Shown here in pieces: positions 3,845-44,050 of a stretch of DNA of 44,050 nucleotides; within the stretch, counting starts at the first letter, position 1, and each line of letters opens with the position of its first letter. The notes under the pieces are model-generated. The model saw only the letters and a list, made by a program, of their open reading frames with translations, was not told where the DNA came from and searched no databases. The DNA is from a virus, in the IMG/VR virus record IMGVR_UViG_3300020215_000024, positions 1 through 44,050 of that record. The stretch is one strand, 5' to 3'. A program made the position numbers and the translations under genes.

Positions 3845-3997
3845 TCACTCCCACACCGGGATACTTTTGAACCTCTCCATGATCTCCTGATCCGTCCCGC
3901 TAATCCTGATACTGTACTTAGCCGCATAGGCCTTAATTTCCTCAATCGTGCGGGCGTTCCTCCGATCAGCCTTCATCTCATCTTGTTTGGCGATCAT
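3845..3997 (-). CDS. Short hypothetical protein (50 aa)
   Basis: The ATG overlaps the upstream stop as ATGA. The product (MIAKQDEMKADRRNARTIEE...) is charged, with a helix then a short strand (YSIRISG) and another helix. I do not recognise it. Confidence 0.6.
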   Translation of the reverse strand: MIAKQDEMKADRRNARTIEEIKAYAAKYSIRISGTDQEIMERFKSIPVWE

Positions 3998-9036: not shown

Positions 9037-9109
9037 GCTGGAGTAGCTCAATTGGCAGAGCATCTGTTTTGTAAACAGAATGTTGGGGGTTCAAGTCCCT
9101 CCTTCAGCT
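9037..9109 (+). tRNA. tRNA-Thr (anticodon UGU)
   Basis: A full cloverleaf is visible: acceptor GCTGGAG with CTTCAGC, D-arm with AGCTCA..GGCAGAGC, anticodon stem TCTGT/ACAGA around loop TTTGTAA (anticodon TGT at 9070-9072), and T-arm GGGGG-TTCAAGT-CCCTC. CCA is not encoded. It lies between the terminator at 8905 and the portal gene, 15 bp upstream of the portal start. It decodes ACA and may compensate for codon-use differences from the host. Confidence 0.93.
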
Positions 9110-28865: not shown

Positions 28866-29526
28866 TACGCTCGTTATCCCAGACATTCACTTTCCTTATC
28901 ATCATAGGCATTCCCTCGATTTCCTCCAAGACACCTACCGCAAGTGGCATTGTAAGCGCGTGATCTCAGTCGGCGACATGTTTGATATGCACAGGACAGG
29001 GCGGCATTTGCCGGAACCGGACTCCATGAGCATGAAGGAAGAGATCGAGATGGGGCGCGTAAATGTGAAGAGCCTCGGGAGCCTATTTCCCCGCATGGAC
29101 ATCTGCTACGGGAATCATGACCTCCGGGCATACAAGGCCGTGAAGGAAAAGGGAATTATAGCAGAGATGCTATATTCGCTCTCGGAACTATATCGGTGTC
29201 CACCTGGATGGAGATTTGATTATGAGTTCCGGCATGAGGGGGTGAGCTACTTTCACGGCGATGGGTACTCGGGTCAGAAGGGTGCGTTAGAAGCGGCCAT
29301 GAAGAGACGGGGATCGGTTGTGATCGGCCACCTGCACAGTTTTGGCGGCATTCATTACCATAATAATGGGCAAAATCAGATATTTGGGCTGAATGTCGGG
29401 TGCTTAATTGATGCGAGTCTCCCGGCCTTTAACTATGCCGCGACCGCGAAGGATAAGCCTACGCTTGGATGCGGAGTTGTGATTGAGGGTGGGCAGTCGG
29501 CTTACTTTGTGCCGATGGAAGTTTAA
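28837..29526 (+). CDS. Calcineurin-like metallophosphoesterase
   Basis: This 229-residue protein has all five metal-site motifs of the family in order: DIH (D16, H18), GDMFD (D47), GNHD (N92-H93-D94), H139 in YFHGD, and GHLH (H164, H166). It should hydrolyse phosphoesters such as nucleotides, nucleic acid ends or phosphorylated proteins with two metal ions. It is the last rightward gene and starts at GTG inside the end of the zinc microprotein. Its stop overlaps the converging acetyltransferase. Its substrate is unknown; phage members act in DNA/RNA metabolism or counter-defence. Confidence 0.85.
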   Translation: MRSTIKTNGNTLVIPDIHFPYHHRHSLDFLQDTYRKWHCKRVISVGDMFDMHRTGRHLPEPDSMSMKEEIEMGRVNVKSLGSLFPRMDICYGNHDLRAYKAVKEKGIIAEMLYSLSELYRCPPGWRFDYEFRHEGVSYFHGDGYSGQKGALEAAMKRRGSVVIGHLHSFGGIHYHNNGQNQIFGLNVGCLIDASLPAFNYAATAKDKPTLGCGVVIEGGQSAYFVPMEV

Positions 29527-29941
29527 ACACGAGCGTATCTTGCTCTCGCGTCTCAGCGAGTACGAACCCACACGCGAGCGCAATCTTAATTGAAGGCTGA
29601 TTGAAGGAGCGGATGAGGCAGACGAGAGGAGCGCGGCCCAGCTTAAGCGCCTCCTGTACCATTGTGCGGCCGTAACCTTTGCGGCGATGTTCCGGAGCCA
29701 CTGTCCAGGAGAGTTCATAGATGTCCTTCACCTTATCGAAGCGAACGGTTCCCACTGGCCCCTCCTCGTTTTCAGCTATATATAGGAAGCGTGAGGGGTT
29801 AGCAAGGGACGCCTCAAGCCACTGGGTATGATCCAGGAGCGGGACGAAGTTACTGTGGAACGAGTTCTGCCGCGTCACGGCATCATTGCGCCATAGGAAG
29901 AGGTTGGATAGGTCTGACAACTCTGCGGGCCGGAGTCTCAT
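29459..29941 (-). CDS. GNAT acetyltransferase (RimJ/RimL-like)
   Basis: This 160-residue protein starts MRLRPAELSDLSNLFLWRND and has SWTVAPEHRRKGYGRTMVQE, the strand and acetyl-CoA loop of the GNAT fold, at about 90-110. WRND with a later HTQW resembles RimL or PseH-type enzymes. I chose the ATG at 29941 because a TTGACA-17-TATTAT promoter ends seven bases upstream; the TTG at 29977 would lie inside the promoter. The 3' end overlaps the converging metallophosphoesterase by 68 bp. Confidence 0.7.
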   Translation of the reverse strand: MRLRPAELSDLSNLFLWRNDAVTRQNSFHSNFVPLLDHTQWLEASLANPSRFLYIAENEEGPVGTVRFDKVKDIYELSWTVAPEHRRKGYGRTMVQEALKLGRAPLVCLIRSFNQPSIKIALACGFVLAETREQDTLVFKLPSAQSKPTAHPQSQLRIQA

Positions 29942-29948
29942 GGCGGGG

Positions 29949-29977
29949 ATAATAGGGTTAGGAATCGCTCTTGTCAA
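29949..29977 (-). promoter_or_regulatory. Promoter of the GNAT gene (leaderless)
   Basis: On the minus strand TTGACA (29972-29977), 17-bp spacer, TATTAT (29949-29954), then seven bases and ATG. Transcription should start at the ATG. The -35 lies within the end of the upstream zinc-ribbon gene. Confidence 0.75.
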
Positions 29978-33473: not shown

Positions 33474-33582
33474 GCTCTCCTTTAGGTTTATCCTTCATTG
33501 TTAATTGCCGCTTCATCTCCTCATCCAGATCCTCATTCGCTACCCATGAGGGAAGTTCGGAATACTTACTGTCCCGGTTCAT
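33451..33582 (-). CDS. Short hypothetical protein (43 aa)
   Basis: The ATG overlaps the upstream stop as ATGA. The product MNRDSKYSELPSWVANEDLD... is acidic then basic. Its 3' end overlaps the next gene by 23 bp. Confidence 0.5.
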   Translation of the reverse strand: MNRDSKYSELPSWVANEDLDEEMKRQLTMKDKPKGERDGNNRS

Positions 33583-33788
33583 AGGCCCTCCGCTTCGCCC
33601 GCATCATCAGTCTCCGTTGGAACAAAATCGCCAATATCAATTTCTTCTCGCGTTGTTTTAATCCCGTGTTGACTAAGATAATGCTCGATGTGTCTTGCAT
33701 ATTCGTCCCATCCGGGGCAATGGCGACTCGTGCTCATCTTTGATAAAAATGCCCGTCTGCAAACAGCCCAGATATTTAACTTATCCAT
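33579..33788 (-). CDS. Short hypothetical protein
   Basis: ATG at 33788 has GGAG seven bases upstream. The 69-residue product (MDKLNIWAVCRRAFLSKMST...) has a helical N-terminus and an acidic tail. The longer upstream frame is ignored because it would overlap another gene by about 100 bp. Confidence 0.55.
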   Translation of the reverse strand: MDKLNIWAVCRRAFLSKMSTSRHCPGWDEYARHIEHYLSQHGIKTTREEIDIGDFVPTETDDAGEAEGL

Positions 33789-34062
33789 TCGTGACTCCGA
33801 GAAAAGCAAAAGCAACAGCCCGTCCATCCTCGGCCCTTCGGGCCTCGTCAGGCGGAGTGTAAAAGCACCAGACCATTGCACCTTGACGCCCGGAATGAAA
33901 TTGGGTATAATTCTTCCCGTCGCAAGGGGTAGTGCCTGAGCGACCCAGATCGTTGCTAAGACGAACGGAATGAAGCCTCGGCGTAAAAACCGGGGCTTTT
34001 TTCTTTTCAGGGCATTCCGGACGGACTTCAGCCAACGTTTCTGGGCTTTTGCTTTTACTCAC
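33781..34062 (-). CDS. Hypothetical protein antisense to a small RNA unit
   Basis: GTG at 34062 has GGAGG upstream and overlaps the RusA stop; the C-terminus overlaps the following gene. The 93-residue product (MSKSKSPETLAEVRPECPEK...) ends with CFYTPPDEARRAEDGRAVAF. A plus-strand promoter and terminator lie within the same DNA, so either strand, or both, may be used. I recall similar PPDEARR ends in other phage sequences but no function. Confidence 0.45.
   Translation of the reverse strand: MSKSKSPETLAEVRPECPEKKKAPVFTPRLHSVRLSNDLGRSGTTPCDGKNYTQFHSGRQGAMVWCFYTPPDEARRAEDGRAVAFAFLGVTNG
33883..33911 (+). promoter_or_regulatory. Plus-strand promoter of a candidate small RNA
   Basis: TTGACG (33883-33888), 17-bp spacer and a consensus TATAAT (33906-33911), facing right inside the leftward operon. 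No plus-strand gene follows; a terminator lies 65-95 bp downstream. Confidence 0.7.
33918..34007 (+). ncRNA. Candidate phage small RNA (about 90 nt)
   Basis: The RNA would begin near 33918 and end in the terminator. Three stems are visible: GTCGC/GCGAC (33919-33944, with inner AGG/CCT), CGTT/AACG (33951-33967), and the terminator stem. No start codon with SD opens a convincing ORF. It is antisense to 33781-34062 and could base-pair with that mRNA or with host transcripts. No match to a named RNA family is claimed. Confidence 0.6.
33975..34007 (+). terminator. Intrinsic terminator on the plus strand
   Basis: GCCTCGG (33975-33981) pairs with CCGGGGC (33990-33996) and is followed by six T, C and four T. 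It faces right, opposite to surrounding genes, and closes the small RNA unit begun at 33883. Confidence 0.75.
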
Positions 34063-34507
34063 CCTGAGCCTCCGCTTTTTGGAGGCGATGGAGTGGCTCT
34101 TGCTTTTCTTCTTCCACCATCTTCCAGATTTTCACAGCAACTCCAGTTTTAGTTACTTCCTGCACCTTTACCAAACGGAACTCCCACACCTGACTGTCAT
34201 CGAACCCCATCTTCTCCGCCACGATGTCAATCAGCACCTTCGCCATGTTCTGCACGTCCTGTTTCTTCATCGCGCCATTCTTAAAGTACCAATCCTGACT
34301 GACCGCCATCTCAATCCCGAGCATATCTTCCTTCTTCGTATCGAAGGGCGGCACGTACAGCTTCGCCGTGTTTTTATACGCCCTCACTTCGGGCTTCATG
34401 AACACCTGTCTCTTTGCGTAATGAATCTGATACAAGGCGTTCATGGACGGCGGGGGAGTAGGCAACCTGAAGTCAACCGACTTCCCCCGAACCAGTCCAG
34501 AATCCAT
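34055..34507 (-). CDS. rusA: RusA-like Holliday junction resolvase
   Basis: This 150-residue protein fits the RusA family, which resolves four-way DNA junctions as a dimer. The start has FRLPTPPPSMNALYQI, and the catalytic cluster lies in KKQDVQNMAK...IDIVAEKMGFDDSQV (D84, N87, K90, D94, D103, D104), matching the family's D-x-x-N-x-x-K...D...DD order. Its start overlaps the stop of the preceding gene (TAATG). With the ssDNA-binding and Sak4-like proteins it should resolve recombination intermediates before packaging. Confidence 0.78.
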   Translation of the reverse strand: MDSGLVRGKSVDFRLPTPPPSMNALYQIHYAKRQVFMKPEVRAYKNTAKLYVPPFDTKKEDMLGIEMAVSQDWYFKNGAMKKQDVQNMAKVLIDIVAEKMGFDDSQVWEFRLVKVQEVTKTGVAVKIWKMVEEEKQEPLHRLQKAEAQGE

Positions 34508-35082: not shown

Positions 35083-35871
35083 TTATTTCGTTGCGGTTGT
35101 TACACTGTTTGCTTTCTTAATTTCCTCAATAATCCTTGCGTAAGAAACGTTCTCAACGATCTCCGGCAAGTTGTAGCGATTCTTCGCGTTCCTCTGCGCT
35201 CCCTTCTGACAGCGAGCCATGTACGCATAGCTCTTACCGTCTGCCGCTTTCTTTTTATCTAGGTACAAAGACGCGCTGAACATTCCTTCAACCTTTTCCC
35301 TGAACCCACCTAAAATATTGGGGACAATCGGCGTGGTCTTATCAGACTTGCGTTCCATCGCCTCATCGCCCTCGACCTGTTCGTGGCAAGTCACAATGAC
35401 ATTGCCGGGGAAGGAAAGGAGGCGTGTTAACGTGAAGTTGTAGAGCCAGCGGGAGAGATTGCCGTACATGCCGCGAGTATCAAGTAAGCCTTGATTCGTC
35501 ACGAGCTTCTCGTACTTATTAATGTAGATCCACCGATTCTCAGACAGGAAGCTCATGTTGTCGAGGCCAAGCGTCTCCACTTTTCCTTCCTTAGCATCCT
35601 GATGCGCCTTTGTGATGAAGCTATCCATCCGTGCAAACGTGTCCTTAATATCCTCGGTCGGGGAGGGGATGAACTCTTCTGCGTATACAAGGTTATTCAG
35701 AAGCGCACTGTTTGACCGCGCTGTATCAAGACCGTTTGGCTCAGTCCCGATATAGGCAATCTTTGGACACGTAAACAGGAAGTGCGTCTTACCTGAACCC
35801 GCTGGGCCATTTGCAAGGGCCTTAATTGTCTGCTTCGCTTCACCGCTAATAATCTGCTCTTTCGTAATCAC
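35083..35871 (-). CDS. Sak4-like RecA-fold recombinase ATPase
   Basis: This 262-residue protein has a Walker A GPAGSGKTH at 22-30, a Walker B VETLGLDNMSF around D104, and a late strand VIVTCHEQVE near 158. Sak4 proteins are minimal RecA-like ATPases that anneal phage DNA together with an SSB. The size and motifs match. GTG at 35871 overlaps the preceding stop as GTGA. It is flanked by an SSB candidate and a Cas4-like nuclease, the usual recombination set. Confidence 0.75.
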   Translation of the reverse strand: MITKEQIISGEAKQTIKALANGPAGSGKTHFLFTCPKIAYIGTEPNGLDTARSNSALLNNLVYAEEFIPSPTEDIKDTFARMDSFITKAHQDAKEGKVETLGLDNMSFLSENRWIYINKYEKLVTNQGLLDTRGMYGNLSRWLYNFTLTRLLSFPGNVIVTCHEQVEGDEAMERKSDKTTPIVPNILGGFREKVEGMFSASLYLDKKKAADGKSYAYMARCQKGAQRNAKNRYNLPEIVENVSYARIIEEIKKANSVTTATK

Positions 35872-43299: not shown

Positions 43300-44021
43300 A
43301 GAGCCTCCTTGGTATAGAAATACGTGACATTCTTTATCCAGTTTTTATTAAGATTTTTCGGGTCATTAGAGGCCCCGACAGGCGCATAGGTCTTGGCCAG
43401 GAAAGAGATAAAATCGAGGCTCTGAGGCCCCTTTTTGTAGCGGGAATAGGCCTTCTGAATCGTCTGCAAACACCCTTTGCGGCACTGGGCCTCCGTCTTA
43501 GCCGAACAATACGGTTTTAGGATCCCATAAGGCTTCGTCCGGGAGTTCTCAGCCCGCTTAATAGCATCCGCTAAGCGCTCAAAGTCCGGAACCGTAGCAA
43601 AATTTATCGGACATTTCTGCCCACGCTTAGGTGCAATTCCAGAACCCTGTGCATTAACAACTTTTGCACAACCCTTACAGGAGTTTGTAAGGTTTACATA
43701 TAAAGATTTTGTAGGGGAAACCCTGAGGATATCCTGTTGAATCTGTGTGGAAGGTGTGGTACCGTAGATGGTCTTAGAGTCATTAGACGCAAATATGTCT
43801 ACCTGAAAAAAGACGCAAACGATGACTGCGACTAAACTTATAACATTACGTTTAGTCTTATAATGTATACTCTCTCTCTCCCTATACAATCGGTCGTTGG
43901 GGATAAAAGCGGGGGATAATTCAAGGGTTCTGTGGATAACTTTACGTCTAAGGCTCACGTCGCTCAAAGGTGCCTTTGCGTTAAATTCTGCACTATAATT
44001 TAAATCCGCCCAGTTTTTCAT
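43296..44021 (-). CDS. Lysozyme/transglycosylase-like protein with N-terminal membrane anchor
   Basis: This 241-residue protein has a signal or anchor helix at about 59-77 (RNVISLVAVIVCVFFQVDIF) preceded by basic residues. A C-terminal domain starts at IKRAENSRTKPYGIL, in which E158 is the candidate catalytic glutamate of a lysozyme-like fold, followed by an FISFLAKTYAPVGASNDP stretch typical of phage muramidase-like proteins. Seven cysteines lie in the exported part. It may be a signal-anchor-release endolysin. It crosses the contig junction and follows the HTH gene. A TTG at 43889 is an alternative start. Confidence 0.6.
   Translation of the reverse strand: MKNWADLNYSAEFNAKAPLSDVSLRRKVIHRTLELSPAFIPNDRLYRERESIHYKTKRNVISLVAVIVCVFFQVDIFASNDSKTIYGTTPSTQIQQDILRVSPTKSLYVNLTNSCKGCAKVVNAQGSGIAPKRGQKCPINFATVPDFERLADAIKRAENSRTKPYGILKPYCSAKTEAQCRKGCLQTIQKAYSRYKKGPQSLDFISFLAKTYAPVGASNDPKNLNKNWIKNVTYFYTKEAL
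43831..43864. repeat. Inverted and direct repeats inside the lysozyme-like gene
   Basis: GACTAAAC (43831-43838) is inverted to GTTTAGTC (43851-43858), and CTTATAA occurs at 43838-43844 and 43858-43864, 20 bp apart. The stretch lies in the codons just before the membrane helix. It may be an operator of the HTH protein encoded next door, or an origin-type repeat. Confidence 0.4.
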
Positions 44022-44050
44022 GCTATTGAAACCTCGGCATCCTTTTTAAC
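43924..44050. repeat. 127-bp terminal direct repeat, right copy
   Basis: Identical to bases 1-127. It contains the start of the lysozyme-like gene and the last codons of the HTH gene. It should be trimmed from one end to make the circular sequence. Confidence 0.95.

Follow-up and report, generated by a model that had tools for sequence, protein, structure and literature searches.

What does a promoter that faces right, followed closely by its own terminator, do within an operon that is transcribed to the left? This question is raised by a locus in the virus record IMGVR_UViG_3300020215_000024, which was analyzed over a stretch of 44,050 bases (the window). The two ends of the window are identical over 127 bp (1-127 and 43924-44050), indicating a complete genome that either has direct terminal repeats or was assembled as a circle. 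Judged from these 127-bp direct terminal repeats and its phage genes, the window is the genome of a tailed, uncultured phage. Rightward genes encode structural functions (terminase, portal and virion proteins), and from about 29.5 kb on the genes run leftward, including a recombination block of PDDEXK, AAA_24, DUF669 and RusA. Among the window proteins scanned no integrase and no repressor were found. The promoter-terminator unit (33883-34007, plus strand) lies directly downstream of rusA and points right, while the minus strand carries rusA (34055-34507; Pfam PF05866, 7.4e-9), the upstream gene in the leftward operon, and the genes below it. Downstream of the unit, the leftward gene likely to come next is a 69-amino-acid ORF (33579-33788, minus strand, ATG start inferred), for which a search for relatives found none. 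Elsewhere in the genome a tRNA-Thr (TGT) gene is located on the plus strand at 9037-9109, just upstream of the gene for a portal-like protein. A GNAT acetyltransferase gene (29459-29977) converges with the structural block and carries a TTGACA-17-TATTAT site on the minus strand at its start. Two copies of a 26-nt direct repeat, 81% identical, are found far apart, at 3932-3957 and 35116-35141.

The unit starts with a sigma-70-type promoter, TTGACG-17-TATAAT (33883-33911), matching the consensus at 11 of 12 positions; this is the general sigma-70-type consensus, which may differ from that of the host. It is the best plus-strand match of this type in the window and the only plus-strand site in 44 kb that reaches at least 11/12. 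The predicted small RNA is ~91 nt long (33917-34007), with its start placed ~6 nt past the -10 box and its end at the last T of the terminator tail, and is predicted to fold into three hairpins. Hairpin 1 (33919-33944) consists of a GUCGC..GCGAC stem with an inner GGG/CCU stem and an unpaired GUAGUG loop, with pair probabilities near 1. Hairpin 2 (33950-33964) is predicted to fold as UCGUU GCUAA GACGA. The third is the intrinsic terminator (33972-34007), with a 10-bp stem (33972-33999, 6 G-C pairs), a loop of 8 and the tail TTTTTTCTTTT, a T6-C-T4 pattern, running to 34007. The minimum free energy of 33912-34012 is -39.1 kcal/mol, compared to -30.1 +/- 3.3 for shuffled sequences (z -2.76), and none of 200 shuffles folded as well.

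Several smaller features were seen in and around the unit. A 13-codon GTG frame within the RNA was noticed by eye. The direct repeat GACGnnCGGAATGAA occurs at 33885-33899 and 33960-33974 (plus strand, 75 nt apart), one copy within the promoter and the other ahead of the terminator; the window holds just these two copies. An inverted CATTCCGGACG is present at 34013-34023 and further GAAAAGCAAAAGC-type copies at 34044-34056. An imperfect inverted repeat (28 nt, 79%) flanks the unit at 33801-33828 and 34087-34114, its right arm being located in the C-terminal end of rusA. These arms possibly mark an insertion boundary or reflect chance in low-complexity sequence. A mobile element, as the inverted repeats might suggest, was rejected: the window contains no second copy and the repeats are low in complexity. 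GC skew was also considered as a sign of a foreign or rightward-transcribed block and was discarded, since 11-12% of leftward windows are equally high, which is not significant.

Single promoter-like or terminator-like matches occur in this genome at chance level in looser scans. What stands out in the unit is the strength of its signals and the pairing of promoter with terminator. A strict scan of both strands of the whole window found one strong terminator, that at 33972-34007, and one promoter (at least 10/12) combined with a terminator, the unit at 33883-34007. Being the only strong terminator of the window, it is unlikely to belong to a generic feature of this genome. Indeed, apart from the unit the strict scan found no strong intrinsic terminator in 1-44050, even at ~29.5 kb where rightward and leftward genes converge. 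In dinucleotide shuffles of the 44 kb, a promoter of at least 10/12 located 40-250 nt ahead of a strong terminator was seen in 0 of 1000 cases, a result to be taken as an approximate guide and not as a formal P value because the criteria were chosen after the unit had been seen. From these sequence statistics it is very unlikely that the promoter-RNA-terminator arrangement arose by chance. The original prediction of a right-facing TTGACG-17-TATAAT promoter, about 90 nt with three stems and an intrinsic terminator within leftward genes was thus confirmed by the scans, the fold and the shuffles.

The absence of a known family, also part of that prediction, was borne out as well: with Rfam over the whole window the gathering score was reached by a tRNA alone, and none of the families reached it for the unit. 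Weak Rfam matches to ctRNA, RnaG and SpF25, seen at permissive thresholds, were dismissed as terminator look-alikes. One of these, ctRNA_p42d (RF00489), the copy-control antisense RNA of RepABC plasmids, has a similar terminator hairpin and U tail (17.9 bits versus a gathering score of 50), but the match covers the terminator alone and the unit lies in a phage operon with no rep genes around. Matches to plasmids and one phage obtained by blastn were short and covered no more than the terminator with the bases immediately ahead of it; blastn against E. coli gave no match to the unit. Short exact patterns were also used, in collections that may lack the records closest to the window. The 18-mer GATCGTTGCTAAGACGAA occurs in four IMG/VR contigs, always at one unrelated site with similarity ending at 21 nt, and the 20-mer GCAAGGGGTAGTGCCTGAGC gave two matches in GTDB with nothing alike outside the pattern; both were taken as chance. 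The 18-mer GTCGCAAGGGGTAGTGCC had no match in IMG/VR.

The AAA protein as query retrieved related virus records with 43-78% identity (some seen twice) and the named phage MW202524, and the capsid protein retrieved 13 further records. RusA homologues are present in 7 of the 21 records tested, and also in MW202524. Blastn of the unit against the 21 related records, the seven that keep rusA among them, gave no significant DNA match. A covariance model built from the single sequence recovered the window's own copy at 8e-27 and detected no homologue in 25 related records; many related records are fragments, so that this absence holds for the sequence present and is unproven elsewhere in those genomes. 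The fetched related loci contain no comparable promoter-terminator unit, and the unit is also lacking in relatives whose genes around rusA follow one another as in the window. In one related locus (L006), inspected by eye, the unit is absent right after rusA, and IMGVR_UViG_3300021061_000097 (13.3 kb), with a 100% identical capsid protein, matches neither the unit nor RusA. Neither the 69-amino-acid ORF nor a 93-amino-acid ORF opposite the unit was found in the related loci, and the stretch below rusA is therefore variable between phages. Whether relatives conserve the promoter and the terminator had been proposed beforehand as a touchstone, and the outcome was negative for the unit, the whole segment being missing there. 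This suggests a lineage-specific element and does not imply that it is functionless.

The 93-amino-acid ORF (33781-34062, minus strand) is a doubtful gene. Compared with true 93-codon stretches from the phage, its codon score is at the 4th percentile, a value that 19% of open shadow frames attain, and searches with Pfam, PHROGs and tblastn gave no match or no significant relative. At its start it shares a GTGA with the stop of rusA, and its end overlaps the start of the ORF that follows. Overlaps of a few bases between neighbouring genes are common in phages. Because of these short overlaps with both neighbours the ORF may still be a gene. If it is false, 266 nt separate the 69-amino-acid ORF (33579-33788) from rusA (stop at 34055), and the unit lies in this gap. 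The original prediction had named 33781-34062 as the gene to which the unit is antisense. With weak coding statistics and no relatives this partner is not well supported, whereas the interpretation as a self-contained, sRNA-like plus-strand unit in the leftward recombination operon stands. Gene or gap, the RNA and the leftward transcript are perfectly complementary, because the unit lies reversed in a stretch crossed by the rusA operon transcript.

The unit is probably a small regulatory RNA, judged by its promoter and terminator signals, which are suitably spaced, and by its predicted fold. It does not represent a leader: no plus-strand gene lies downstream, the DNA to the right being rusA on the minus strand, and a leader or attenuator was therefore rejected. 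A free-standing RNA made by the host polymerase is the simplest reading. The best reading of the sequence is a lineage-specific phage sRNA that would be made by host RNA polymerase and whose anatomy resembles that of lambda OOP. In lambda, transcription of the pO-oop-tO unit runs counter to cII-O and results in cleavage by RNase III (PMC5869508, PMC12197685). By analogy, we tentatively favour, with a probability of roughly 0.4, an autonomous phage small-RNA gene exerting OOP-like cis-antisense control of the leftward mRNA. Host RNA polymerase of the sigma-70 type would initiate at about 33917-33919 and produce a three-hairpin RNA of ~91 nt, stopping at the intrinsic terminator at ~34007. Within or close to the gap that separates rusA from the next small ORF, this RNA would pair with the polycistronic leftward mRNA, and the duplex would be cut by RNase III. 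Expression of the genes below rusA may thereby be uncoupled from that of the recombination genes.

The resemblance to OOP concerns the arrangement. Both are short autonomous promoter-RNA-terminator units opposite an early or replication operon and antisense at a gene junction, the present one being known from sequence signals alone (PMC5869508, PMC12197685). Such an autonomous unit in a phage genome is also characteristic of phage small RNAs in general, and is present here as sequence signals. However, the antisense target of OOP is the 3' end of cII, beside the replication gene O, while the neighbours of the unit are rusA (PF05866) and the orphan 69-amino-acid ORF and no cII or O was seen. 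Unlike that of OOP, the antisense partner of the unit is no firm gene. The OOP family of Rfam had no match over 33800-34080 up to E = 10. Many antisense RNAs have been observed while phages such as phiR1-37 infect their hosts lytically (PMC12197685). The misc RNAs of phiR1-37 and PAK_P4as15 are antisense transcripts opposite phage genes, as proposed for the unit, and mostly of unknown function (PMC12197685). Those RNAs were observed as transcripts, whereas that of the unit is predicted.

Since no firmly supported gene is located in the region complementary to the RNA, a cis-antisense role is weakened and action in trans is left open. It is possible that this autonomous RNA acts in trans as an sRNA, perhaps bound by Hfq or ProQ, through loops that pair with mRNAs of the host or other mRNAs of the phage, and that its antisense position is incidental. 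Its own promoter, two small open-loop hairpins and the long U tail of its terminator are the typical build of such sRNAs, phage-encoded examples are VpdS and PreS (PMC12197685), and the DNA below the unit holds no firm gene. However, the best duplex with translation starts of the phage itself was matched by 14% of shuffled sRNAs and is not significant, and without homologues no conserved seed can be named. Cis-antisense control is ranked slightly above trans action. A more specific variant is considered unlikely: an RNA gene of an undescribed family that the phage acquired recently, inserted after rusA in this lineage only, whose product would work in trans in the host, for instance as a decoy or sponge that captures one of its RNAs or proteins.

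Other explanations do without a regulatory RNA of this kind. The unit might work as DNA or through its transcription, a convergent promoter interfering with the leftward operon and the RNA being a by-product. The strong promoter consensus facing the operon would fit, but a specifically stable multi-hairpin RNA would be unnecessary, and the terminator would hold transcription to ~91 nt, short of the end of rusA at 34055, thus limiting collision with the leftward operon; we regard interference as quite unlikely. A chance or decayed functionless arrangement between genes, or a coding stretch at 33781-34062 that mimics a unit on its reverse strand, would explain why no relative keeps the unit and why this ORF fits so neatly, with short overlaps, between its neighbours. 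Against this stand the 0 of 1000 shuffles, the fold z-score of -2.76 and the weak coding signal of the ORF, which make it improbable. Least credible, and indeed hardly likely at all, is an RNA anti-CRISPR (Racr) or a tracr-like mimic, that is, a promoter-driven solitary RNA resembling a CRISPR repeat. Racrs are likewise promoter-driven small non-coding RNAs of phage genomes (PMC10651486), but no CRISPR-repeat similarity was detected in the unit: the best match to a CRISPR-repeat family, DR36, scored 11.5 bits versus a gathering score of 38, and the window holds no repeat-like copies.

On its signals, the unit downstream of rusA is an orphan example of an already known kind, the phage small RNA, with a sequence that belongs to no known family. 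The evidence is sequence-based, and its practical value is that it offers a clear and cheap target for an expression test. If expressed, the unit would join the few compact RNA regulators known from uncultured phages, as one with an orphan sequence. In that case the variable cargo that this phage carries behind rusA, in a recombination block that is shared in other respects, would be a gene for an RNA instead of a protein.
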